Part shown: one piece after another, positions 1-41,135 of the stretch
Numbering within the stretch: position 1 is the stretch's first letter
How the letters are laid out: the number at the start of each line of letters is the position of its first letter
Virus record (IMG/VR): IMGVR_UViG_3300044705_000074
Location: 1-41,135 of that record
DNA from: a virus
Direction: 5' to 3' (one strand)
DNA length: 41,135 nucleotides
Position numbers and translations under genes: made by a program
The notes under the pieces: model-generated
Database searches by the model: none
Seen by the model: the letters and a program-made list of their open reading frames with translations, nothing else
Told to the model about the DNA's origin: nothing

Positions 1-574
1 ACGGCGGGCACCCCGTCGGCCACGAGCTGCTCCCGCTCAACTCCACGCACGTCTTCGGCAGACACCCCGCCCCGCTCCAGCTGCCCGCCGCCAGGGTGAG
101 CCCGAGGGGAGCGGCCCCGCTGCCGCCGTCGGCGTAGGCCACGGTGCAGCCGCTCCCGGTGGAGCACGCGCAGGGGAAGGGCGCATCGCTCCTGCCCTGC
201 ACCCACCCCTCGAAGAGCGCCTCGCCGGCGTCGCAGGGGCTCACCGAGTCGTCGTCGTAGACCACCACCAGGCCGGGGAGCAGATTGGGCCCCGGGTCCA
301 CGCCGCCGTCGACCGGCACCGCGCAGACCTTGGCGCGCACGTAGGCGCTACCGCCCGCGTCGACGCCGAAGGCGCTGAGGACCTGCGGTGAGGCCAGCGC
401 GGTGGTCCACACGCGGACCGAGCCGGGAGGGAGGCCACCGTCGGGGGCGGCGATCAGCACGTGGCCGGCAGGGGCCTCGGGTCCGGTGGAGAGCAGGCCG
501 GCAGCGACGGCGCCGGCGAGGGCGACGAAAGCGGCGGCGGCGCCGGCCTTCTGGGCGGAGGTGAGCGCGCTCAC
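1..574 (-). CDS. Cys-rich membrane-anchored or secreted protein, C-terminus off the left edge
   Basis: The frame is open from a GTG at 574 to the edge, 191 codons with no stop. The GTG overlaps the TGA of the upstream gene as GTGA, the coupling seen throughout this operon. Residues 1-32 (SALTSAQKAGAAAAFVALAG...) form an Ala-rich hydrophobic segment that could be a signal anchor. The remainder is Gly/Pro-rich, with paired cysteines (CDAGEALF, PCACSTGSGC) and a GCLPKTCVELSGSSSWPTGC stretch. I know no function. Its place after the appendage genes and its probable export suggest a virion surface or host-envelope protein. There is no ATG near the start, so a simple ORF scan would miss it. Confidence 0.7.
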   Translation of the reverse strand, partial: MSALTSAQKAGAAAAFVALAGAVAAGLLSTGPEAPAGHVLIAAPDGGLPPGSVRVWTTALASPQVLSAFGVDAGGSAYVRAKVCAVPVDGGVDPGPNLLPGLVVVYDDDSVSPCDAGEALFEGWVQGRSDAPFPCACSTGSGCTVAYADGGSGAAPLGLTLAAGSWSGAGCLPKTCVELSGSSSWPTGCPP

Positions 575-2081: not shown

Positions 2082-5000
2082 TTATTTCTTACCCACAAAA
2101 ACGTTGGAAAGTCCAGTCTGGACCTTGGGCACTTCCATCTTGCTCCGGGTCATCTGCCGCCCGCCCCCGTGGTTTCCCATGGACGACGGGCCCGGGACCT
2201 TGAACATTTGCTGCATTCCCGGCACGTTGAACAGGCTGGTGTGTGCGGGTCGGCGCAGGGCGGTACTCAGCATGAGCCGGTCCTGGTAGGTGAGGGGGTG
2301 CCCGCCCGTGGTCGCGGTCGCCTGCAAGACCCGGCGCTCGTAATCGGCATACCACTGAGGATGGACCGTGGCCACGGCCTTGACCTGATCCGCCGTGAGG
2401 GTCCGATCGTGCATATCGTCCACGATCGACTCCGGGGCCATGACGGCGCGCACCTGCTTATTGAATGCGGCCATCTGGGAGTCGCTCGGGGGCAAGGGCG
2501 AGGTCGGGAACCCGGTCGGAGGCAAGTCCGGGCTCGGAGCCACACTGGCCAGGTAGGACGCGGCCTTCGCTCCCAGGTTGGCGATGGTGTCCGCGATCTG
2601 GGGCGTATGCCGGGACAGGTTCGGCATCTGGCCCCGGATCGCCTCCTTGCTCCGGCCCTGATCGCTGGCGATGGTCCGGAGGTCGGTCACCACCCGGTTG
2701 AACGCCTCGGCCTCGGACTCGCCCTTGGCGCCGGGGTTGAGGATGGTCACGTCTCGAAGGCTCCCGGGCTTCGGGGTCAGGCGTGGGGCCGACTTGCCGT
2801 TGAAGAAGGCGTCCAAGGACTCGCCCATCTTCCGGGACGACTCCGCGGCCTTCTTGGCGATGGCGGCCACAGCCTCGGCCTTGGCTCCTCGGGCCACGGA
2901 CACCAGCCCGGCCAGAGCTCGGACCGAGAACGGGGCGTGGTGCAGGGCCATGCCGGCGATGCCGTGGCCGTGGGTCTGCGCCAGCTCCGCACGCTTGGAC
3001 TCGAGCGCCTTCTCGGTCGCGCCCTGGATCTCGTCCAGGTTCGCGTTCAGGGCATCCACGCTGACCGGCTTCTTGCCCAGCACCTCGTAGGTGTTGGCCT
3101 TGATTCGCTCCATGGCATCGGCCGCGGACTGGAGGTAGTTATGCAGGGCCTGTCCGCGCAGATCGCCGCGGGGGTCGTTCTTGGCCGCTTGGTCGAGGTA
3201 GGTTGCGACGCGCCCGGGGCTGGCCACGCGGTCATCGCCCATCTTCTCGAAGAAGCGGCGGCGCAGTTCCTTGCGGGCGTCGTAGAACGGGGCGAGGGCC
3301 TGGTTCAGATCCTTCTGGTAGGTCGCGGCGCGGCCGTAGATTTGCTCGTTCTCAAGCGTGGTCTTGAGTAGATCACGGGCCTTCATCACCCGGTCGTACA
3401 CGAGCTGGTCCGCGCCCTCGAGTGGCTTCTTGGGCCGGAACTTGTCCAGGTCCCGCTTGGCCTGGTCGAGCGCGAGGAACTGACCCGCCTTGTCTTCGGC
3501 CGAGGACACACGGTCCAGGGCGCGCTCGAGAACCACCTTGCCCCGCGAGCCCCACGCGTTCTGGAAGTCGGACTTCTCCAACTGGCCGAGGGCCTTCTGC
3601 ACGGCCTGGGGCGCTCCCATGTCCGCAGGCTCGGACTCGAGCAGGGCACGGACCATCTGCGGCTTGGCCTCCTCGTGCAGATCCTTCACGAACGCCTGGA
3701 AGTTGTCATCGCCCCGGGCCAACTTCGCGGCTACGGCGCGCACATCCTCCGGGGTGTCGATCCCCTTCGCGGACGCCTTCTCGGCCGCGCGGTCGAACCA
3801 CGAGGCGGCCTTGTCCATGGCCTCGGGCGCGTACTTGCCGGTGACCCCGAGCAAGTGTTCGACTGACGCCCCGCCGACTCCACCGAAGATCGCCGCAGCA
3901 GGCAGGTTCCCGAACACGCTCGATGCCGTGTGCTCGCGGTCCTGAAACACGTCGTCGGTCAGGTTCGCGCCGATCTGATAGATGGGCGCCTCGACCGCCC
4001 CTCGGGCCACAGCGCGAGCCAGGGGGTTCTGAAGGCCCAACGCATCGGCCGCGGCGTTGCCAACGGAGGCGATGGCTCGGTTCGGCGCCGAGGCCAACTC
4101 GAGGGCGTGTTTCAGCGCGCCCGGACCGTTGGGAGCGGCGGCCGGGGGGAGATCCGACGCGAGACCCTCGAGCGGGGCGCCGCGGTCCGATGCGGTGGCC
4201 TCGGTCGCAGGGGGATGTCGGATGTTCGCGGTGGCCTCGGTCGCGCCGGCAGTTCTAGCGGGAGCACGGATGTTGGCCGTGGCCTCGGTCGCGGCCGGGG
4301 CGGGAGGTGGACCAACAACGGGCGTGCTTTCCGTGGCCGACGCGGGCTCACCACGAGGGGAAATGACCGTGTCTGCGGTCCCGAAGCCCAGATCCTGCGA
4401 AGCTAGAATCTGCGAGTCAGAGACCGGCAACACCTTGGAACGCTCAAGGCTGCTCAGGATGTCGCTGTCAGCAACCGAATACTCTCTGGGATTGCCTCCC
4501 AGCGCAGTGAGTATCTGACTCTCTTCTACTGGGTTGAGAACATCCTTCTCCAGCAGCGGAATCGGACCCTTCTTGGTTACGGAAGTCCGTGGGATTTGAA
4601 ATTCTTGTGGATCGAACTCCATCCCGCTAGTGAGCGGAATCGGACCCTTCTTGGTTACGGAAGTCCGTGGGATTTGAAATTCTTGTGGATCGAACTCCAT
4701 CCCGCTAGTGAGCGGAATCGGACCCTTGGAGGTCAGAATGTCGCTCTCCCGCACCGGAATGGAGCCGGTCCCACCCGAGTGCGTGAGAATATCGTTCTCA
4801 CGAACCGGAATTGAACCCGTCCCATAGCCAGGCCGAGTAGGAGACGCGGCCGTCTTATCTAGGCCAACATCCGTCGACAGTTGCGTAACAGGATCAGCCG
4901 CAGGGCCTCTAGCGCCTCTCTTTCCGGCGGCCGTTACCTGCTCTGCACGCTGCTTTCGGCCCGCACTCTCGCCCAACTCTCGGCCGTAGTTCTCAAGTGC

Positions 5001-5552
5001 GGTTGCGCTTGTTTTCGCGGTCGTCGCTTCGATCTTCGGCGCGGCCTTCTCGACAGCCTCGGCAGCCCGGGGCAGGCTCTTGGCTGCGGCCTCCTCCGCG
5101 GCCAACTTCGCGCCTCCGGACTCACCTCCGGTCGCGACGGTGGACCCGAGCAGGGTTCCGTACTCGGCCACGTTCGCGGTGATGGGGTTGGCCTCGGCTA
5201 CGTCCCGCTGGCGTTGCCCGGACACGCCCGCGGCCTGGAGGATGTCCGAGGACCCGACCGGCATCAACCCCCGGAGCGCGCCCTCGCCCGCGGCCTCGGC
5301 CTGGCCTGCGACGCCGCCGTACTTCTTCTGCAACTCCTCCTGCCGCACCTGCTCGGGAGGGATGAACGTGTGCCCGGCCGCGGTGAGTTCCGGCAGGTGG
5401 ACCGGATCGACTTCGTACCGCTGTCCGTCCGAGTCCTCGACCTGGACCTTCACACCACGAGGGTAGCCGTACTTGCCCGAGGCGATGGCGTCAGGGACGT
5501 TCTCATCTGGGATCGAGACCGGCTGGCCCTTCTGATCGTAGAGGGTGGACAT
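2082..5552 (-). CDS. Large internal virion/ejection-type protein with repeat-rich region
   Basis: 1156 aa, Ala-rich and mostly helical. The N-terminus has two similar half-units (GQPVSIPDENVPDAIASGKY and GQRYEVDPVHLPELTAAGH), followed by GEGALRGLMPVGSSDILQAAG, a pattern I associate with large phage ejection proteins. Residues about 230-400 form a low-complexity linker with PIPL/IPVR and DIL-type motifs, including a 78-bp exact tandem repeat, then repeated ATEATANIR units. The C-terminal 700 residues are charged and helical, with coiled-coil stretches and a short hydrophobic GAVEAPIYQIG...AAAIFGGVGG segment. It lies in a block of three such proteins next to the tail hub, which fits a DNA-delivery role. 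No lytic transglycosylase motif was recognised. Confidence 0.7.
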   Translation of the reverse strand: MSTLYDQKGQPVSIPDENVPDAIASGKYGYPRGVKVQVEDSDGQRYEVDPVHLPELTAAGHTFIPPEQVRQEELQKKYGGVAGQAEAAGEGALRGLMPVGSSDILQAAGVSGQRQRDVAEANPITANVAEYGTLLGSTVATGGESGGAKLAAEEAAAKSLPRAAEAVEKAAPKIEATTAKTSATALENYGRELGESAGRKQRAEQVTAAGKRGARGPAADPVTQLSTDVGLDKTAASPTRPGYGTGSIPVRENDILTHSGGTGSIPVRESDILTSKGPIPLTSGMEFDPQEFQIPRTSVTKKGPIPLTSGMEFDPQEFQIPRTSVTKKGPIPLLEKDVLNPVEESQILTALGGNPREYSVADSDILSSLERSKVLPVSDSQILASQDLGFGTADTVISPRGEPASATESTPVVGPPPAPAATEATANIRAPARTAGATEATANIRHPPATEATASDRGAPLEGLASDLPPAAAPNGPGALKHALELASAPNRAIASVGNAAADALGLQNPLARAVARGAVEAPIYQIGANLTDDVFQDREHTASSVFGNLPAAAIFGGVGGASVEHLLGVTGKYAPEAMDKAASWFDRAAEKASAKGIDTPEDVRAVAAKLARGDDNFQAFVKDLHEEAKPQMVRALLESEPADMGAPQAVQKALGQLEKSDFQNAWGSRGKVVLERALDRVSSAEDKAGQFLALDQAKRDLDKFRPKKPLEGADQLVYDRVMKARDLLKTTLENEQIYGRAATYQKDLNQALAPFYDARKELRRRFFEKMGDDRVASPGRVATYLDQAAKNDPRGDLRGQALHNYLQSAADAMERIKANTYEVLGKKPVSVDALNANLDEIQGATEKALESKRAELAQTHGHGIAGMALHHAPFSVRALAGLVSVARGAKAEAVAAIAKKAAESSRKMGESLDAFFNGKSAPRLTPKPGSLRDVTILNPGAKGESEAEAFNRVVTDLRTIASDQGRSKEAIRGQMPNLSRHTPQIADTIANLGAKAASYLASVAPSPDLPPTGFPTSPLPPSDSQMAAFNKQVRAVMAPESIVDDMHDRTLTADQVKAVATVHPQWYADYERRVLQATATTGGHPLTYQDRLMLSTALRRPAHTSLFNVPGMQQMFKVPGPSSMGNHGGGRQMTRSKMEVPKVQTGLSNVFVGKK
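4555..4727. repeat. 78-bp exact tandem repeat inside the ejection protein gene
   Basis: Two exact 78-bp units (4563-4640 and 4641-4718) are followed by the first nine bases of a third, and eight matching bases precede the first. The period is exactly 26 codons, so the reading frame is kept. The encoded unit begins KGPIPLTSGMEFDPQEF and ends IPRTSVTK. Identity at every base, including synonymous positions, points to a recent duplication. Confidence 0.95.
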
Positions 5553-25264: not shown

Positions 25265-25474
25265 ATGGACCGCACTACCCCCCACATCCCCGGAAGCATC
25301 GCGATCGTCGATTTGTCCAAAGACAAGCTCGACCGCATCCTGGCGGCCGACGCCCATGCCTTGTGGGGTGAGTCAAAGCCGGCCCACGTGACGGCTCGGC
25401 AGATCCGCGACCACGAGGCGGGGCGGACGCTGGCGAAGATCACGGCAGACCTGGCCGTGTTGCTCGCCCGCTAG
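25265..25474 (+). CDS. Early orphan protein
   Basis: 69 aa, MDRTTPHIPGSIAIVDLSKD, then KLDRILAADAHALWGESKPA and a basic helix. GGAG precedes the ATG by about nine bases. The TAG stop forms the first three bases of the 68-bp repeated element E1, so the element begins exactly at the end of the gene. No family recognised. Confidence 0.55.
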   Translation: MDRTTPHIPGSIAIVDLSKDKLDRILAADAHALWGESKPAHVTARQIRDHEAGRTLAKITADLAVLLAR

Positions 25475-25539
25475 CAGTCGGCCCTAGTCCGTAGCCACGC
25501 GGACGCGAGCGGGTGCAAGCCCCGACCTAGGGAGTCACA
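25472..25539 (+). ncRNA. Intergenic structured element E1 (copy 1 of a 68-bp repeat)
   Basis: Exactly repeated at 25892-25959. Predicted fold by eye: a 6-bp closing stem CCCTAG/CTAGGG, hairpin GTCCG with loop TAGCCACG, hairpin CGGG with 7-nt loop TGCAAGC, then AGTCACA and the next ribosome site. The GTCCG arm shares its first G with the closing stem. The second hairpin resembles a tRNA T-arm in size and loop. This reading is an inference from complementarity. Confidence 0.55.
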
Positions 25540-25551
25540 CAGGAGGAAGCC

Positions 25552-25860: not shown

Positions 25861-25891
25861 GACCGCGGCCGAGATCCACAAGGCGCGGCGG

Positions 25892-25959
25892 TAGCAGTCG
25901 GCCCTAGTCCGTAGCCACGCGGACGCGAGCGGGTGCAAGCCCCGACCTAGGGAGTCACA
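25892..25959 (+). ncRNA. Intergenic structured element E2 (copy 2 of the 68-bp repeat)
   Basis: Identical over 68 bases to 25472-25539, 420 bp away, and in the same position relative to the next gene: it ends 19 bases before an ATG with a GGGAG ribosome site. Same predicted three-way junction as E1. Confidence 0.55.
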
Positions 25960-25978
25960 AGCAAGGGAGCAACGAACA

Positions 25979-26230: not shown

Positions 26231-26300
26231 TCCCCGCGCACGGTCCGTGTCCAAGCGGCCCCTCGGGTGCAAGGCCCGAGCGTGCGAGTCAACGAAACAC
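26231..26300 (+). ncRNA. Intergenic structured element E3
   Basis: A different sequence with the same plan as E1: closing stem CGCACG/CGTGCG, hairpin 1 with loop TGTCCAAG (one mismatch in its stem), hairpin 2 CTCGGG/CCCGAG with loop TGCAAGG, then AGTCAAC. The closing stem differs from E1 on both sides but still pairs. This is covariation support for an RNA fold. Confidence 0.5.
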
Positions 26301-26319
26301 AAACCAAAGGATACAGGTC

Positions 26320-29201: not shown

Positions 29202-29227
29202 GGCCCCTAGGATCGATCCTAGGGGCC
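29202..29227. terminator. 26-bp perfect palindrome terminator between converging genes
   Basis: GGCCCCTAGGATC at 29202-29214 is perfectly complementary to 29215-29227. On the plus strand it is followed by GCTCTGCTTTT, which gives a T-tract. It separates the rightward early array from the leftward membrane gene, so it may end both. A role as a DNA-binding site cannot be excluded. Confidence 0.7.
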
Positions 29228-29641
29228 GCTCTGCTTTTGGAGCGCGTGCCAGCAATCGGCGCAAGCCAGCCGCGGACCTGGGTCGCGCCACGGAACAAGC
29301 CACCCGCCGCGGCGCATGTCCACATCCGCAAGCGTCTTGCCGCACAGGGTCCGATCTCCGCGACCGTCTGCCGGTACGACGTGGAAATAGGGCACGCGCG
29401 CGTCAACCAAAAACATCCGCGCGCTTGCCACGGGAGCGGGAGTGGGAGCGGGAGCCGGCGCCGCCCCCACCCCATAGATCCACCACACGACAGCGCCCAC
29501 GGCCGTGGCCAGTAGCACTAGCCCGCCCACGCTCGGGCCCGCGATCACGAGCGCACCCCAACCCCACACCATGGTAGCCCCGCCCGCGGCCAGGGACGCC
29601 CACCGAGCGCGGCTAGTGGGCGGGCGCGAGGGGTAGGACAT
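29219..29641 (-). CDS. Leftward membrane protein with C-terminal zinc motif
   Basis: 140 aa from the ATG at 29641 (MSYPSRPPTSRARWASLAAG). An upstream in-frame extension exists, but GGGGGAAG lies upstream of this ATG. Two hydrophobic segments, GATMVWGWGALVIAGP and VGGLVLLATAVGAVVWWIYG, suggest a two-helix membrane protein. A Pro/Ala linker and TLCGKTLADVDMRRG...LACADC, a CxGK...CxxC zinc-like tail, follow. The membrane segments invite a holin comparison, but the zinc tail is not typical. No lysis gene is adjacent, so a host-envelope role is equally possible. Confidence 0.5.
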   Translation of the reverse strand: MSYPSRPPTSRARWASLAAGGATMVWGWGALVIAGPSVGGLVLLATAVGAVVWWIYGVGAAPAPAPTPAPVASARMFLVDARVPYFHVVPADGRGDRTLCGKTLADVDMRRGGWLVPWRDPGPRLACADCWHALQKQSGP

Positions 29642-30768: not shown

Positions 30769-33246
30769 TTGATCCGCATCGCGCTGTACGACTCCGAAAA
30801 AGCAAACATCCCCGTGGTCAAGGATCTCGATTGGGAGAACCTGACCAACCTTCTGCACACGTACAGGTTCACACCCTGCGGCGATCAGTGCCCCGGGCGC
30901 GAGTGCCCGCACAAACTCGGCCCCGCATGGTCTCCTCACACGCTTGTTCCCGGCAAGCCTCGCGGACGCGGCAACGTGCTCGAAGTCACGGTCGCGGTCT
31001 TCGATCTGGACCATCTCGCGGAATCGGACCTCGACGCGCTCTTGCAGCGGTTGATGGACCTTGGCCTTCGCACCGCCGTTCACACCACGCATAACCACCG
31101 CCCCCCGAACGAGTGCTCAGTCCGGGTCGCGTGCGAACTCTCCCGGCCCGTGCTGGACCGCGAGTGGCCCGCGTTCCGAAGCGCGGTCGAGCGCGAGTAC
31201 CAGATCCCCGCCGACGCGCAAACCAAGGACTCGACCCGGATCTATTTCCTGCCCACATCCCCCGAGGGCCGTACCCCGCAAGTGGCCTGGTTCGGCGACC
31301 GCCCCATCGACGTGGACGCAGTGCTCGCCAAGCACCATCAGCCCACACAACTGGTCCCGCAGGTCCCCGAATACTCAGGCGAGGCCCAGCACATCGATTT
31401 GCACGCGCTGTGGGACCTGGCCCTGCGCACCAAGAACGAGGACGCGCGCCAACTCGTTCGCCTCGCGCAGAAGGGCGAGCCCATCGCGGAGGAGGGCGGA
31501 CGCGACGATGCTCTGACCCGACTCGTAGGCTCACTCGTTTACAACCTCCCACTCTCGGTCCCGCGCGAGGCCATCATTGGCATGGTCGAGCCCAGCGTTC
31601 GGGTCATGCCCGGCGACCAACCCGCGGGCGATACCTGGCTCAGCCTCGCGCGCAAGAAGATCGACCGAGCCCGGGACCGCCGCGCCGCCGAACTCGTTGC
31701 TCAAGCCGAAGAGAACGAGCGCATCCGCGCCGCCCTGGCCAAGACCTCCGCGCAGTTGGACGGCCACTCGGCTGCGGACATCGACGCGGACGGGCATTAC
31801 ACCAACGATGCGTTGCAGCGATGGGCCAAAGAGCAGGGCTGCGCCTCGGTCAACGACCTCATCTCGCAATTCGTGGTCAAGAAGTCACGAGAAGATTGCT
31901 ACTACGTCTTCCGGCACGGCGCCTATTCTCGCCCGCGAGCCAAGGCCGACCTCAAGATCGACTTCACCGAAGCGTTCGCGCCCGCACCGTTCCCCATGGT
32001 TACCACCGACCGCAAGGGAAACGTCCGCGAGCTGACCGTGGACGAGTTGCTCGAGGGTCACGTCAAACTTGCCGACGAGCGCGTCTACTCCCTCATCCTC
32101 CAGAAGTCCGTCTTCGATGCCAAGACCCGGACCTTCATCGAGGCGTGTTGCCCGCTGCGAACAGTCGCGACCGTCGAGCATCCGGAGATTCAGGAGTGGC
32201 TCAAAATCATCGCCGGGGACCGCGCCGAGTCTCTACTCCGATGGTTGGCCACTGCCCACCGACTCGAAAAGCCCACCTGCGCGCTCTACATCGACGCGCC
32301 CAAGGACATGGGCAAGAACCTCCTCGCCAACTGTATCGCCTCCCTGTGGACCGACAAAGGCCCGGCGATGCTCAAGGAGGCACTCGACAACTTCAACGCT
32401 TGCATCAAGGACTGCCCGCTGTTGTTTGCGGATGAGGCGTTACCCAAGTTGCCGGACATCACTTCGCTCTTGCGCTCGCTGGTGACCCTGAAGAACCACC
32501 GCGTCAATGATAAGCACGAGAAGAAGGTTTCGCTGGTTGGCTATCCGCGCGTGCTCGTGGTGGGCAACAACCGGAACCTGCTCACCAGCCGCGACCACCT
32601 CACCAGCAAGGACGTGGACGCAATCGACATCCGGTTCCTGTACCTGAACGCGCCCCAGGCCGCGGCCGATTACCTTAAGACCATCGGTGGTGCCACGGCT
32701 GTGAACAAATGGCTCGAGCATGGGCTGTTCGCTGAACACATCGCCTGGCTACGGACCCAGATCGATTACGAGACCCCCAACCGCCTGTGGGTGGATGGTG
32801 ACCTGGGCCAGCTCAAAAACCAATTCACCATCGACCACGTCGAGAAGGGGAACGCAGTGTGCGACTGGCTGGCCAATTTTCTCTCGCACGACCCTGCTCG
32901 ACCGCTGCACAGCCCCACCAACCTGCTTGTGGGCTGCGGTGAACTATGGGTCAAACCCGAGGCGATGACTGACCCCATGAGTTGGGAGTTGTTCGCCTCC
33001 GAGTCCCACAAGAAGCCCAGCAACCGCGAAGCCTCGGCAGTGCTGCGGGAGTTGAGCGACTCCGGGGCGACAATCCGCCCCTATGTCGGCACCGCGCGCC
33101 CGAACTACTGGAGGCTTCGATCCGAGGTTTTGTTCCAATGGATGGAGCAGAACTCAGTCGGTAATCCAGATGTAGTCAAGGCCCGTCTCGAAGCACCGAA
33201 CGACCTCATGGTCAAGACAGGACTCCTCAAGGCTCAGGTAACCTAA
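30769..33246 (+). CDS. Primase / SF3 helicase fusion
   Basis: 825 aa from a TTG start with GGGGAGC seven bases upstream; the next in-frame ATG lies about 90 codons in. The N-terminal half fits an AEP-type primase: VAVFDLDHLAE (about residue 79), TAVHTTHNHRPPNECSVRVA (about 105) and STRIYFLPTSPEGRTPQVAW. The C-terminal half is an SF3 helicase: IDAPKDMGKNL P-loop (about 507-517), LLFADEALP Walker B (about 548-556), VVGNNRNLL sensor, and a later IDIRFLYL arginine. The P-loop lacks the usual first Gly and has Asn in place of Ser/Thr after GK, so ATPase activity should be checked. It heads the replication operon. Confidence 0.8.
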   Translation: MIRIALYDSEKANIPVVKDLDWENLTNLLHTYRFTPCGDQCPGRECPHKLGPAWSPHTLVPGKPRGRGNVLEVTVAVFDLDHLAESDLDALLQRLMDLGLRTAVHTTHNHRPPNECSVRVACELSRPVLDREWPAFRSAVEREYQIPADAQTKDSTRIYFLPTSPEGRTPQVAWFGDRPIDVDAVLAKHHQPTQLVPQVPEYSGEAQHIDLHALWDLALRTKNEDARQLVRLAQKGEPIAEEGGRDDALTRLVGSLVYNLPLSVPREAIIGMVEPSVRVMPGDQPAGDTWLSLARKKIDRARDRRAAELVAQAEENERIRAALAKTSAQLDGHSAADIDADGHYTNDALQRWAKEQGCASVNDLISQFVVKKSREDCYYVFRHGAYSRPRAKADLKIDFTEAFAPAPFPMVTTDRKGNVRELTVDELLEGHVKLADERVYSLILQKSVFDAKTRTFIEACCPLRTVATVEHPEIQEWLKIIAGDRAESLLRWLATAHRLEKPTCALYIDAPKDMGKNLLANCIASLWTDKGPAMLKEALDNFNACIKDCPLLFADEALPKLPDITSLLRSLVTLKNHRVNDKHEKKVSLVGYPRVLVVGNNRNLLTSRDHLTSKDVDAIDIRFLYLNAPQAAADYLKTIGGATAVNKWLEHGLFAEHIAWLRTQIDYETPNRLWVDGDLGQLKNQFTIDHVEKGNAVCDWLANFLSHDPARPLHSPTNLLVGCGELWVKPEAMTDPMSWELFASESHKKPSNREASAVLRELSDSGATIRPYVGTARPNYWRLRSEVLFQWMEQNSVGNPDVVKARLEAPNDLMVKTGLLKAQVT

Positions 33247-33638
33247 TGCCCGCCGTCAGGATGGTCGCAGTCGTTGTCGCAGGATGCTTTCACGTTGGTG
33301 CATCCCTGTTGGCACGGGGTCAGGCAGTTACCGTAGCAGGGTTGGGTCTGGTTCCCGCCGCATTGGCTCATGCAACTCACCGGGCAAGTGCCGGCGTTGC
33401 AGTTGTTGAAGTTCGAGGTGCAGACATCGTGGCACTGCTGGACCGATCCGCTACTCCCCGACGATCCCGACGATCCGGTACTCACACTAGACCCCGTGTT
33501 TCCGCTGGACCCGGTGCTCCCGACCGTCGCTCCAGTTCCGGTGCTCCCACTCGTCCCAGCACCCACTTCGCCGTTGCATCCCACGCCGACGACCACGAAC
33601 GCCGCCAGAAACATCGCCATTAGAGTTCGCGTATCCAT
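33243..33638 (-). CDS. Cys-rich lipoprotein cargo gene (moron candidate)
   Basis: 131 aa, leftward inside the rightward replication arm, overlapping the primase 3' end by four bases. Signal peptide with lipobox VGVG-C (Cys21), then a Gly/Ser/Thr linker (GSTGSSGNTGSSVSTGSSGS) and a 60-residue tail with 12 cysteines. AGGGTGG precedes the ATG. It looks independently acquired. It could act on the host envelope, such as in superinfection exclusion, but nothing proves that. It is unlike Rz1-type lysis lipoproteins, which are not Cys-rich in this way. Confidence 0.65.
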   Translation of the reverse strand: MDTRTLMAMFLAAFVVVGVGCNGEVGAGTSGSTGTGATVGSTGSSGNTGSSVSTGSSGSSGSSGSVQQCHDVCTSNFNNCNAGTCPVSCMSQCGGNQTQPCYGNCLTPCQQGCTNVKASCDNDCDHPDGGH

Positions 33639-33673
33639 ATGACCACCCTAACGCACCCGCCTCGAGCCGCGCC

Positions 33674-33853
33674 ATGACCACCATCACCACCCCCGCTACC
33701 ACCGGGATCGGCCGAGACATTCTCCGCGGCGTGTTGGTGGGCATCACCATCGAAATCGTGACCCACATCACCCACCACCTCGTGGACAGGTTCCTCCCCG
33801 ATCTGCCCACCCCGCCTGCCCCGCCCAAAAAGCGGCGCCGGACCAAGCGATGA
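33674..33853 (+). CDS. 59-aa protein with hydrophobic helix and basic tail
   Basis: ATG at 33674, TGA at 33851-33853, 59 aa. Its stop overlaps the ATG of the nuclease gene (ATGA), strong support for a real gene despite its size. RDILRGVLVGITIEIVTHIT is an amphipathic or membrane-compatible helix, and PPKKRRRTKR a strongly basic tail. The ribosome site is weak. It could be a small membrane anchor or a DNA-binding partner of the nuclease. Confidence 0.55.
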   Translation: MTTITTPATTGIGRDILRGVLVGITIEIVTHITHHLVDRFLPDLPTPPAPPKKRRRTKR

Positions 33854-35274
33854 GCACCGCTCGTGGTCGCGCCCCCGCCGTGGTTGACGGCGAGCTCCAG
33901 CATGTCTCCGTTAGCCAGATCATGTCCTACGACGACGGCAGTGGGGGAGGGTGCCCTCGCGCGTGGTGGTACGACAAGGTTGCTCGCGTCCCTCGCGTCG
34001 ATGCCGGCGCATGGCAGAGCGTCGGCACCCTGCTTCATTCCGAGGTCGAGGATTACCTCACGGGCCGACGCACATCCTCGGACCTGTCCGCCCTCGCCCT
34101 TGCCGGCGTCCCGCACCTGCCCGAACCCTCGAGCGATCTGCTGGTCGAGCACCCGCTGGTGAACCCGGGCCTGACCGCGGCAGGTGTTCCCTTCGAGGGC
34201 TACGTCGATTGGTTGGACCCGCGAGACCCCGAGCAGCCGCACGTCGGCGACAACAAGACCACCAAGAGCATCCGACTCTGGGCCAAGACCCCGGAGCAAC
34301 TCGCGACCAACGTCCAGGCCGCGGTCTACTCCCATTGGGCCCGGCTCCGCTACCCGACCGCAAAGTCCGTGAAGTTCTCGCACGTTTACTTCGAGACGAC
34401 CCCACTCGATGACGGGGCCCATCGCTCGTGCCGCGTCGAGAACGTTTTTAAGTTGACAGAACTGGACCCCCTTTGGTTATCTATTGAGCGCACGGTTGAG
34501 CGGATGAAGGCGACCGCGCGGGAAACCCGAGACCGCGACGTAACCCCGAACACGAACCACTGCCGGGCCTATGGCGGGTGTCCCTACGCCAAGGTGTGCC
34601 CCCATAGCCCGGCCAATCGACGCACCACCGAGAACGAATCCCTGAAGGAGTTGATGATGGGCCTGTTGAACAACCTCACCATCCCCGCCGTGGAGAGCCC
34701 GGAGCAGGTATCCATTCTCCCGCCCGACGCACCGGTTCCGGTCGCAGTCCCGACCCCTGCCACGCCCTTGCCCCCAGCCCCGCCCGAGGCCGAGCGCGCG
34801 GCCCAGCCCGACCCGTTGGCCCGAGAGAAGAAGCGGGGTCGGCCCAAGAAGTACCTCCCCAGCAACATGCCTCCGCAAACCGTCGATCGCGTGCAGGAGT
34901 TGCCCCCGACCGCCCTCGCCGCCGCGGCCAAGGCCGGGTTCCGACCCGTGATCCCGCCCACGACCGAGACCCCGCCCGTGCCCGAGGGGCTCACCCTCTA
35001 CGTGAACTGCGTCCCGAACTCGTTCCACATCGTCCTCAACGCCCGGATCAACGAGTTGGCCGCGCAGTTGGCGAAGGAGGTGGATGCTCCCGACGTGCGA
35101 CTCGCGGCCAACGATTCGCCGCTGGGCTATGGCAAGTGGAAGGCCGCTCTCGCCCAAGCCATCGTCGCCGAGGGCTGCTATGGCGACGTGGTGGTCCACA
35201 GCGGCGACCTGGCCGACCCCGTGATCGACGTGCTGCGCGGGAAGGCGACCAAGGTCGTCGTGGGGGTGCGGTGA
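33850..35274 (+). CDS. PD-(D/E)XK nuclease of Cas4/AddB type with AT-hook and extra domain
   Basis: 474 aa. The nuclease core shows CPRAWWYDKV (Cys35), the metal-site pattern GYVDWLDP (Asp120) and GDNKTTK (Asp134-x-Lys136), QAAVY (Gln156), and a C-terminal Cys trio CRAYGGCPYAKVC (238, 244, 250). Four cysteines with this spacing are typical of a 4Fe-4S Cas4/AddB exonuclease. A Pro-rich linker and KKRGRPKK (327-334, an AT-hook) lead to a final domain of about 110 residues, STLYVNCVPN-like to VVVGVR, that I do not recognise. It is next to an SF2 helicase, which fits a recombination or end-processing module. Confidence 0.75.
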   Translation: MSTARGRAPAVVDGELQHVSVSQIMSYDDGSGGGCPRAWWYDKVARVPRVDAGAWQSVGTLLHSEVEDYLTGRRTSSDLSALALAGVPHLPEPSSDLLVEHPLVNPGLTAAGVPFEGYVDWLDPRDPEQPHVGDNKTTKSIRLWAKTPEQLATNVQAAVYSHWARLRYPTAKSVKFSHVYFETTPLDDGAHRSCRVENVFKLTELDPLWLSIERTVERMKATARETRDRDVTPNTNHCRAYGGCPYAKVCPHSPANRRTTENESLKELMMGLLNNLTIPAVESPEQVSILPPDAPVPVAVPTPATPLPPAPPEAERAAQPDPLAREKKRGRPKKYLPSNMPPQTVDRVQELPPTALAAAAKAGFRPVIPPTTETPPVPEGLTLYVNCVPNSFHIVLNARINELAAQLAKEVDAPDVRLAANDSPLGYGKWKAALAQAIVAEGCYGDVVVHSGDLADPVIDVLRGKATKVVVGVR

Positions 35275-37581: not shown

Positions 37582-37652
37582 TGTTCATCGGCCGTAAACG
37601 ACCGATGAACCCGAAACACAAACCAACACATACACAGAAAGGCAGTTTGAGA

Positions 37653-38818: not shown

Positions 38819-38896
38819 TGGCGGGTGAGCCGAATTGGGTAAGGCACGCGGCTGTTAACCGCGGATGTATTGCAGGTTCGAGTCCTGCCCCGCCAG
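38819..38896 (+). tRNA. tRNA-Asn (GTT)
   Basis: 7-bp acceptor TGGCGGG/CCCGCCA, anticodon stem CGCGG/CCGCG with loop CTGTTAA (anticodon GTT), T-arm GCAGG-TTCGAGT-CCTGC, discriminator G. D-stem is weak and the variable loop is 8 nt. CCA is not encoded. Its 18-bp T-arm sequence is identical to that of the tRNA at 39601. Confidence 0.8.
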
Positions 38897-38923
38897 CTCG
38901 TTGTATCAACCGCAGAGGACCAA

Positions 38924-39160
38924 ATGGCAACACCTGAATTTGATGCGCGTTTGAATCTGGCCTTCGTCGAACTTGCCGAGGGGGGTCGCGAAGAGGTCGT
39001 GCTTCGCTTCACCCGGGATGAGGGTGCCTTCGACAATGGCGACGATGACGGCGCTGTGTGGGGCGTCGATGTTGACGATCTCGGATGCGACGGGATTTGT
39101 AACAACGATCCCAGCGGACTCATCAAGCACCTCGCCATCGCCGTTCGGGGTGTCGAATGA
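38924..39160 (+). CDS. Small acidic protein
   Basis: 78 aa from ATG 38924 with AGAGGA six bases upstream. MATPEFDARLNLAFVELAEG, then an acidic FDNGDDDGAVWGVDVDDLGC. Stop overlaps the GroES-like gene start (ATGA). Perhaps a calcium-binding or decoy protein; that is only a composition argument. Confidence 0.5.
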   Translation: MATPEFDARLNLAFVELAEGGREEVVLRFTRDEGAFDNGDDDGAVWGVDVDDLGCDGICNNDPSGLIKHLAIAVRGVE

Positions 39161-39468
39161 AATTCCACCCCATCAACAACCAGATCCTCATCAAGCGCCG
39201 CGAACTCGCCAAGAAGTCCAAGGGCGGGATCATCCTCCCGGGCACGGCCGAGTTCGCTAACGTGACCTATGGCCAGGTGGTCGCCGTGCCCGAGGGCGAG
39301 ACCGCCATCAAGGCTGGGGACTTCATCGCCTACAACACGGTCAAGCGCCGCGAGGTGTCCATCGCCGGCAACGTGCTGGATGTGGTGGTCAACGACAAGG
39401 ACTCGGTGTTCGGTAAGTTCGAGATTGAGGACGGGGACGGTCCTCTCTTCGAGAACACCGACCGGTAG
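39157..39468 (+). CDS. GroES-like co-chaperonin
   Basis: 103 aa, coupled to the preceding gene. NNQILIKRRELAKKSKGGII and LPGTAEFANVTYGQVVAVPE follow the GroES core pattern (VLIKRxE...GGIILPxTA...GxVVAVxxG), and the chain stays within GroES length. KAGDFIAYNTVKRREVSIAG covers the beta-barrel return. The mobile loop is the KKSKGGIIL segment. It may work with host GroEL to fold the capsid, as gp31 of T4 does. The host-factor link is inferred. Confidence 0.75.
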   Translation: MKFHPINNQILIKRRELAKKSKGGIILPGTAEFANVTYGQVVAVPEGETAIKAGDFIAYNTVKRREVSIAGNVLDVVVNDKDSVFGKFEIEDGDGPLFENTDR

Positions 39469-39567: not shown

Positions 39568-39600
39568 GGCTAGTCCGTTGACCGGGATGACGGTCACCTT

Positions 39601-39674
39601 GCCAGCGTAGCCCAACAGGTAGAGGCAAACCCCTCAAAACGGTTTCAGTGCAGGTTCGAGTCCTGCGGCTGGCA
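39601..39674 (+). tRNA. tRNA, anticodon CAA (Leu-like, atypical)
   Basis: Acceptor GCCAGCG/GGCTGGC (one G-G mismatch at the base, T39600-A39674 extends it), T8 and GGTAGA in the D-loop, anticodon loop CTCAAAA (CAA), T-arm GCAGG-TTCGAGT-CCTGC. The anticodon stem has a C-C mismatch at its top pair. The variable loop is short (TCAGT), whereas bacterial tRNA-Leu has a long arm, so the identity is uncertain. Confidence 0.65.
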
Positions 39675-39695
39675 CCCTATCGCCCGGAGTGAAGT

Positions 39696-40232: not shown

Positions 40233-41135
40233 ATGGTCGCGCTCCCGCTCACCGCCTTCGACTGTGAGACCTACCAGATTCAGGACGGTCTTCTCGCGCC
40301 CCCTCTGGTGTGCGGGTCCGCAGCCGAGCCCGAGCCCGGAACCGAGCGCATCCTCTCCCGCGAAGAAGCCGTCGCCGAGTTCGAGCGCCTCCTCCGTGAG
40401 TCCGGCCGCATCATCGTGGGCGCGAACATCGCTTACGACATGGCCGTCCTCATGGTCGCCGCACCGCACCTGATCCCGCTGGTGATCGAGAAGTATGACC
40501 GTGAAGAGGTCTACGACGTACTCATCGCTCAGGGGCTCAACGACATTGCCAACGGCACGTTCCTACTCGATCCTAAGACCAGGTTCCCGCTCAAGCACCC
40601 GGACACCGGCAAGCGCGCGGAGCGGTACTCCCTCGAGTTGACCAGTAGCCTCGCTCTCGGCCGGCACAATGCCAAGGAGAACGACGCGTACCGGCTCCGG
40701 TACGGCGAACTTGCCTCGATTCCGATGTCGCAGTGGCCCGCGGTCGCGATCCAGTACCCCAAGGACGACGCGCGCAACACTGTGGACGTGGCCCGAGCCC
40801 AGATCGAGCAGGGGTACAAGAACCTGGGACACCTGACGCGTGAGGTCCGGGCCGCGCTCGGGATGCACCTCGGCGCCGTCCATGGTCTGCGGACCGACCC
40901 CGTGCGCGTGGCCGAGCTCCAGAAGAAGACCGCAGACCAATGCGCCGCCTATCAGCAAGAGTTCCAGGCCGTGGGCTTCCTTCGCCCTGGAGGGTCCGAG
41001 GACACGGCCAAGGTCAAGTCCCGGGTCGCCCGCGCATACGGGGCCACGAACCCATGTGGGAAGTGCGCGGGGACCGGGAAGGTGCCCAGCCCCAAGACCG
41101 GGAAGCCGATCCAGTGCAAGGCATGCTCCGCAACC
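40233..41135 (+). CDS. DNA polymerase I (family A), N-terminal part, runs off the right edge
   Basis: 301 codons visible from ATG 40233, preceded by GGAGG overlapping the previous stop. The 3'-5' exonuclease domain shows TAFDCETYQI (Asp10, Glu12), GANIAYDMAVL (Asp about 69) and YPKDDARNTVDV (Tyr with Asp about 177), all three exo motifs. A zinc-like CGKCAGTGKVPSPKTGKPIQ...CKAC insertion follows near the edge, the CxxCxGxG type also seen in early proteins. The polymerase domain is outside the window. It completes the replication arm with primase, helicase and ssDNA-binding protein. Confidence 0.8.
   Translation, partial: MVALPLTAFDCETYQIQDGLLAPPLVCGSAAEPEPGTERILSREEAVAEFERLLRESGRIIVGANIAYDMAVLMVAAPHLIPLVIEKYDREEVYDVLIAQGLNDIANGTFLLDPKTRFPLKHPDTGKRAERYSLELTSSLALGRHNAKENDAYRLRYGELASIPMSQWPAVAIQYPKDDARNTVDVARAQIEQGYKNLGHLTREVRAALGMHLGAVHGLRTDPVRVAELQKKTADQCAAYQQEFQAVGFLRPGGSEDTAKVKSRVARAYGATNPCGKCAGTGKVPSPKTGKPIQCKACSAT

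Follow-up and report, generated by a model that had tools for sequence, protein, structure and literature searches.

A leftward gene in a phage replication arm, probably envelope cargo, encodes a predicted stalked and cysteine-rich lipoprotein

Introduction

Why does a gene for a cysteine-rich lipoprotein run leftward among the rightward replication genes of a phage? The question is raised by positions 33243-33638 (minus strand) of a 41,135-nt window, which is an entire IMG/VR virus record (IMGVR_UViG_3300044705_000074). Both ends of the window fall within genes: the left one truncates an exported-looking gene (1-574), and the right one a DNA polymerase gene (40233-41135; phrog_17, E 2.2e-6). 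The original prediction, made from the sequence alone, read the locus as a cargo (moron) gene, possibly for superinfection exclusion or envelope change, and as a hint at the host group. Phage lipoproteins with an action on the envelope of the host have been described in a handful of model hosts. For a phage group that has received little study, the present analysis makes the idea of a surface cargo concretely testable.

Results

The reading frame at 33243-33638

The ORF was present as described, with 131 aa on the minus strand, an ATG start at 33638 and a stop at 33245-33243. A weak Shine-Dalgarno-like AGGGTGG (33643-33649, minus strand) ends 4 nt ahead of the ATG. The gene occupies the gap between the end of a primase/helicase-like replication gene at 33246 and the start of a rightward small ORF at 33674, and its 3' end overlaps that of the primase/helicase gene by 4 bases. 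The primase/helicase-like gene (30769-33246, plus strand) matched phrog_9765 (E 1.6e-8) and, below the cut-off, DUF5906 (E 1.5e-5). The small ORF (33674-33853, plus strand, 59 aa) has a codon choice score of 0.218, above every off-frame piece, and opens the next rightward block, which continues with a PD-(D/E)XK (Cas4-like) nuclease gene (33850-35274, plus strand; PF12705, E 2.3e-11) and a SNF2-type helicase gene.

The lipobox signal, Gly/Ser/Thr linker and 12-cysteine tail that had been noted in the product were all found, and among the window's ORFs of 100 aa or longer, this one alone fits the PS51257 lipobox rule. Simulated genomes (100 of 41 kb each, drawn from the window's own base statistics) averaged 1.4 lipobox ORFs, or 0.06 when a strongly hydrophobic core was required; 12 Cys per 60 residues occurred in no lipobox ORF of the set. 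Synonymous codon choice was the most gene-like of the six frames there, yet weak (-0.036), a score matched by 13% of off-frame pieces. The Cys tail alone scored +0.08, like phage genes, while the signal and linker scored lower, with codon choice atypical for the phage. These results indicate that 33243-33638 is very probably a real phage lipoprotein gene. If it were a spurious antisense ORF, the stretch would be untranslated, or rightward frames at 33246-33623 or 33370-33642 would be the real genes. The whole-ORF codon score lies under that of most known genes, the searches returned no homologs, and a consensus scan (E. coli-type consensus) found no promoter- or terminator-like site for the gene. 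However, chance did not produce the joint presence of a signal with lipobox, a stalk and a symmetric Cys tail, and the rightward frames have worse codon scores than the lipoprotein frame. We consider a spurious ORF very improbable.

The gene had also been described as the only leftward one in the arm. That description is not safe, because a leftward candidate gene at 29219-29641 (minus strand) in the same arm scores gene-like too, at 0.036, a value attained by 3.6% of off-frame pieces. Its product combines a hydrophobic segment with a Pro/Ala linker and has cysteines in its C-terminus (LCGKTLADVD...CADCW), and no homolog of it was found.

Signal peptide, lipobox and stalk

Residues 1-21 (33576-33638, minus strand) form a signal peptide and lipobox ending in VVVGVG followed by Cys21, the predicted lipidated residue. 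The PROSITE PS51257 rule asks for K/R in the first 7 residues, an uncharged stretch and a lipobox Cys at 15-35. The protein passes it as an SPase II substrate, with the Cys at 21 and a core hydropathy of 2.52. Under the strict lipobox pattern [LVI][ASTVI][GAS]C, GVGC fails, with G at -3. Deviating lipoboxes occur among o-spanins (PMC6139136). The stalk follows at residues 22-66 (33441-33575, minus strand), and 80% of its 45 residues are Gly, Ser or Thr. In AF2 models, pLDDT was below 50 across residues 20-64, that is, the stalk had no confident structure.

The cysteine tail

The tail comprises residues 67-131 (33246-33440, minus strand), with 12 Cys within residues 69-124. The gaps between them, 3-6-4-3-3-7-3-3-3-6-3, are nearly mirror-symmetric, and the reversed order differs by one residue in total. 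Such symmetry was attained by 1% of gap shuffles (0.01) and by 3e-5 of random placements. The tail has seven Cx3C pairs, compared to 1.9 expected (5e-5), and no Cx2C pair. Since the Cys spacing is nearly mirror-symmetric, the tail is most simply read as an antiparallel hairpin closed by six disulfides, and the spacing predicts rungs at 69-124, 73-120, 80-113, 85-109, 89-105 and 93-101. AF2 run without relatives gave two main helices, one per arm, at low confidence (mean pLDDT 50 and 61), and a Foldseek search with this low-confidence tail model returned nothing significant (best E 3.9).

Copper-storage bundles have Cx3C-spaced helices. The Cx3C spacing of the tail likewise sits on predicted helices, which could bind a metal such as copper through their thiols instead of forming disulfides. 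However, the exported location is oxidising, the mirror-symmetric pairing fits disulfides and no metal-binding family matched the tail protein, and a metal-binding tail seems very improbable to us.

Homolog searches

As far as searched at the sequence level, the Cys-rich lipoprotein is an orphan with no phage relative. Scans of viral and genome contigs with exact 8-residue words, which distant relatives would escape, found no homologs, nor did searches of phage records (tblastn) or of plasmids. Pfam, PHROGs, NCBIfam and PADLOC gave linker matches and nothing else, and the weak matches of a PDB sequence search were mostly to the linker. Similarity to the Llp and Ltp superinfection exclusion families was absent in tblastn on phages and in family searches. 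Six-Cys DNA patterns in viral contigs yielded, among the matches listed, low-complexity repeats only. A search of 379 Myxococcota genomes with the tail gave 15 matches at E<=0.02, where about 7.6 were expected, and most of the 15 were rejected as not being Cys-rich lipoproteins.

Relatives of the phage and the case for cargo

A search with the SNF2 helicase found MW202816 and IMGVR 3300047160_006225. Both have the Cas4-like/SNF2 pair, and the lipoprotein gene is absent from both. The TerL search found two contigs in Nannocystis-class genomes (35-36% identity), which have TerL, portal, major capsid and tail genes in common with the phage. Of these two, G108:C39 is an integrase-bearing prophage of 36.7 kb that has a lipoprotein of its own at C39:24004-24450. 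The portal search gave 80 viral contigs; lipobox genes were present in about eleven of the portal-matched loci, of differing kinds and each with at most 6 Cys per 60 residues. The lipoprotein gene was absent from 40 whole related virus records, many of them fragments, the few matches being to the linker.

Two phage-related contigs carry trypsin-like proteases, one a lipoprotein encoded directly before TerL (L456:16305-16982, plus strand) and one a membrane protease encoded directly before the Cas4-like gene (L310:3735-4463, plus strand). We considered whether relatives share a cargo slot ahead of the Cas4-like gene and rejected the idea, the second protease being its single example. As no such gene is annotated in MW202816 and 29 structural relatives do not carry the SNF2 half of the Cas4-like/SNF2 module, the slot is an anecdote.

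The cargo-like status put forward in the original prediction was supported. The gene is leftward in a rightward block, it is absent from the 40 relatives and from the two module relatives, and relatives carry unrelated lipoproteins; the E. coli-type consensus scan yielded no promoter or terminator of its own. Absence from relatives had been named as a finding that would speak against the claim, and absence was observed, but a recently gained cargo gene would look alike. We conclude that the lipoprotein gene is probably moron-like envelope cargo and not part of replication. No integrase or repressor was identified among the genes examined in the window, itself truncated on both sides.

The probable host

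Matches to the whole protein at E<=1e-3 were found in 35 of 290 Nannocystis-class (Polyangia) genomes; two control groups had 3 such genomes among 195 and 2 among 198. The Nannocystis-class matches were mostly lipoproteins with GSS-type stalks, matched mainly through stalk composition. Because Polyangia genomes are also larger, this excess gives moderate support for the host. The two structural-gene relatives in Polyangia genomes point the same way; since the TerL search included no control classes, they leave other hosts possible. The hint at the host group is partly supported, the matches running mostly through the stalk, and the host is probably a myxobacteria-like bacterium of the class Polyangia.

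Polyangia membrane proteins with a similar tail

Nine Polyangia (Myxococcota) genomes (G551, G394, G527, G556, G533, G545, G552, G559 and G214) encode membrane proteins that end in a tail spaced 3-6-4-15-3-6-3, or in one of the nine 3-6-3-15-3-6-3. As G551 and G394 have one sequence in common, there are eight distinct tails. The proteins (L349-L357) combine a helical-looking N-terminal domain with a membrane segment, a linker rich in Pro and Ala, and the 8-Cys tail at the C-terminus; the two tested matched no Pfam family. The spacing of the outer eight cysteines, 3-6-4 ... 3-6-3, is common to these proteins of the probable host class and the phage tail. The phage tail has 23 residues in place of the 15, or one extra C-x3 turn per arm. 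In contrast to the phage protein, the Polyangia proteins are larger, membrane-anchored and without a lipobox, with four fewer cysteines and two fewer turns.

In the 3.3 Mb of sequence scanned, the 3-6-4-15-3-6-3 grammar occurred elsewhere in low-complexity loci only, and a profile of the Polyangia tails gave three weak matches in 195 control-class genomes, all without such grammar. The phage tail matched a Polyangia sequence at E 0.0068 in 1 of 379 genomes, with about 2.6 such matches expected over the set. The first Polyangia tail came from the phage-tail search and the others from a profile dominated by that first sequence, so a similar design is shown and common descent is not. Judged by spacing, the phage and Polyangia tails appear to share a Cys design, each Polyangia arm being one turn shorter, and common descent is not proven.

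Possible functions of the lipoprotein

The proposed mechanism involves lipidation at Cys21 and transfer of the protein to the outside of a membrane. The host is probably Gram-negative and from the Polyangia, and the membrane probably its outer one. In the oxidising envelope, the tail would fold into an antiparallel helical hairpin with up to six disulfides, held off the membrane by the flexible stalk. There it may occlude or modify a surface receptor and keep out a second phage, similar to T5 Llp in superinfection exclusion. The product would thus be a cross-linked Cys hairpin, displayed on a stalk at the host envelope, that probably alters the host surface, and its 12-Cys mirror-symmetric arrangement has a Cys grammar common to membrane proteins of the probable host class.

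Two phage lipoproteins provide precedents. T5 Llp is a small, periplasm-facing lipoprotein that closes the receptor FhuA (PMC9586334). It resembles the predicted product in being a small phage lipoprotein at the outer membrane and in having its termini held by a disulfide (PMC9586334); Llp has the single Cys11-Cys58 disulfide, whereas the protein described here has 12 Cys and a 45-residue stalk. Ltp of TP-J34 stops DNA injection (PMC3952083). It is a lipoprotein of similar size (142 aa) and has been termed moron-like (PMC3952083), but it belongs to a Gram-positive host and to a lysogeny module, and such a module was not identified in the window.

From these analogies, superinfection exclusion is tentatively the likeliest single job of the lipoprotein; the proposal is reasonable but unproven. 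The best explanation overall, which we hold with less than even confidence, is an exported lipoprotein serving as envelope cargo, with a stalked hairpin and superinfection exclusion as its likeliest role. It is supported by the sole lipobox ORF of the window, the codon choice of the frame, the Cx3C excess, the mirror symmetry, the Polyangia tails, the AF2 helices, the lipoproteins of related phages and the Llp and Ltp precedents. Against it stand the missing homolog of known function, the empty promoter scan, the truncation of the window on both sides, the failed strict lipobox, the atypical codons of signal and linker, Llp with one disulfide and no described stalk, and the absence of a link between the tail and a receptor.

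The envelope cargo may instead aid the host or alter its surface otherwise, through adhesion, protection from secreted enzymes or cell-cell recognition, and may have originated from a Polyangia-type lipoprotein. This alternative is nearly as probable as the best explanation, and it is consistent with the signal and stalk matches to Polyangia lipoproteins, with the Cys grammar of the Polyangia membrane proteins and with the functional diversity of exported proteins in relatives, such as the trypsin-like lipoprotein before TerL. It names no specific activity, however, and the stalk matches are partly compositional and come from larger genomes.

In another alternative, the phage would have taken or copied the outward-facing Polyangia hairpin as a decoy, with one more turn per arm, on a lipid-anchored stalk. 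The decoy would compete with or mask the host surface protein, and perhaps spread to neighbours via outer-membrane exchange. We regard such a decoy as a long shot.

An o-spanin (outer-membrane, Rz1-like) of a lysis system would likewise be a phage lipoprotein with a linker, and the small size and flexible stalk of the product agree with this. Known o-spanins have 0-4 periplasmic Cys and an i-spanin partner (PMC6139136). The tail has 12 Cys, whereas none of 526 known o-spanins exceeds 4 (PMC6139136), and no i-spanin adjoins the gene, whose neighbours are the primase/helicase gene and the rightward 59-aa ORF. For these two reasons an o-spanin is highly unlikely. The gene also lies in the replication arm, while the relative G108:C39 has a glucosaminidase at the end of its structural arm. 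SitA toxins of myxobacteria, often on mobile DNA, also have a lipobox followed by a disordered region (PMC8546572), but a SitA-like toxin is unlikely because the C-terminal toxin domain and immunity gene are absent, the protein ending at its Cys tail with no minus-strand gene following.

Other features of the window

The structural arm ends in three consecutive genes (571-1671, 1656-2051 and 2-574, minus strand). Two have Sec-signal-like N-termini, one with a Laminin_G_3/tail-protein match, which is unusual for virion proteins. The gene for a 1156-aa protein (2082-5552, minus strand) contains a perfect 78-nt tandem duplication at 4555-4710.

The replication arm contains a small Cpn10/GroES-like gene (39157-39468, plus strand; PF00166, E 2.6e-11), and the plus strand also carries genes for tRNA-Asn (gtt; 38819-38897) and tRNA-Leu (caa; 39600-39677). 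An 82-nt direct repeat (93%) lies at 25469-25550 and 25889-25970; its inner arms (CCCTAG...CTAGGG) are complementary. Both copies lie directly upstream of ORFs and had no Rfam match, and the pair is possibly a repeated structured leader. A 23-nt repeat (CGAAACACAAACCAA...) at 26293-26315 and 37612-37634 lies near gene starts and may be a promoter or leader element.
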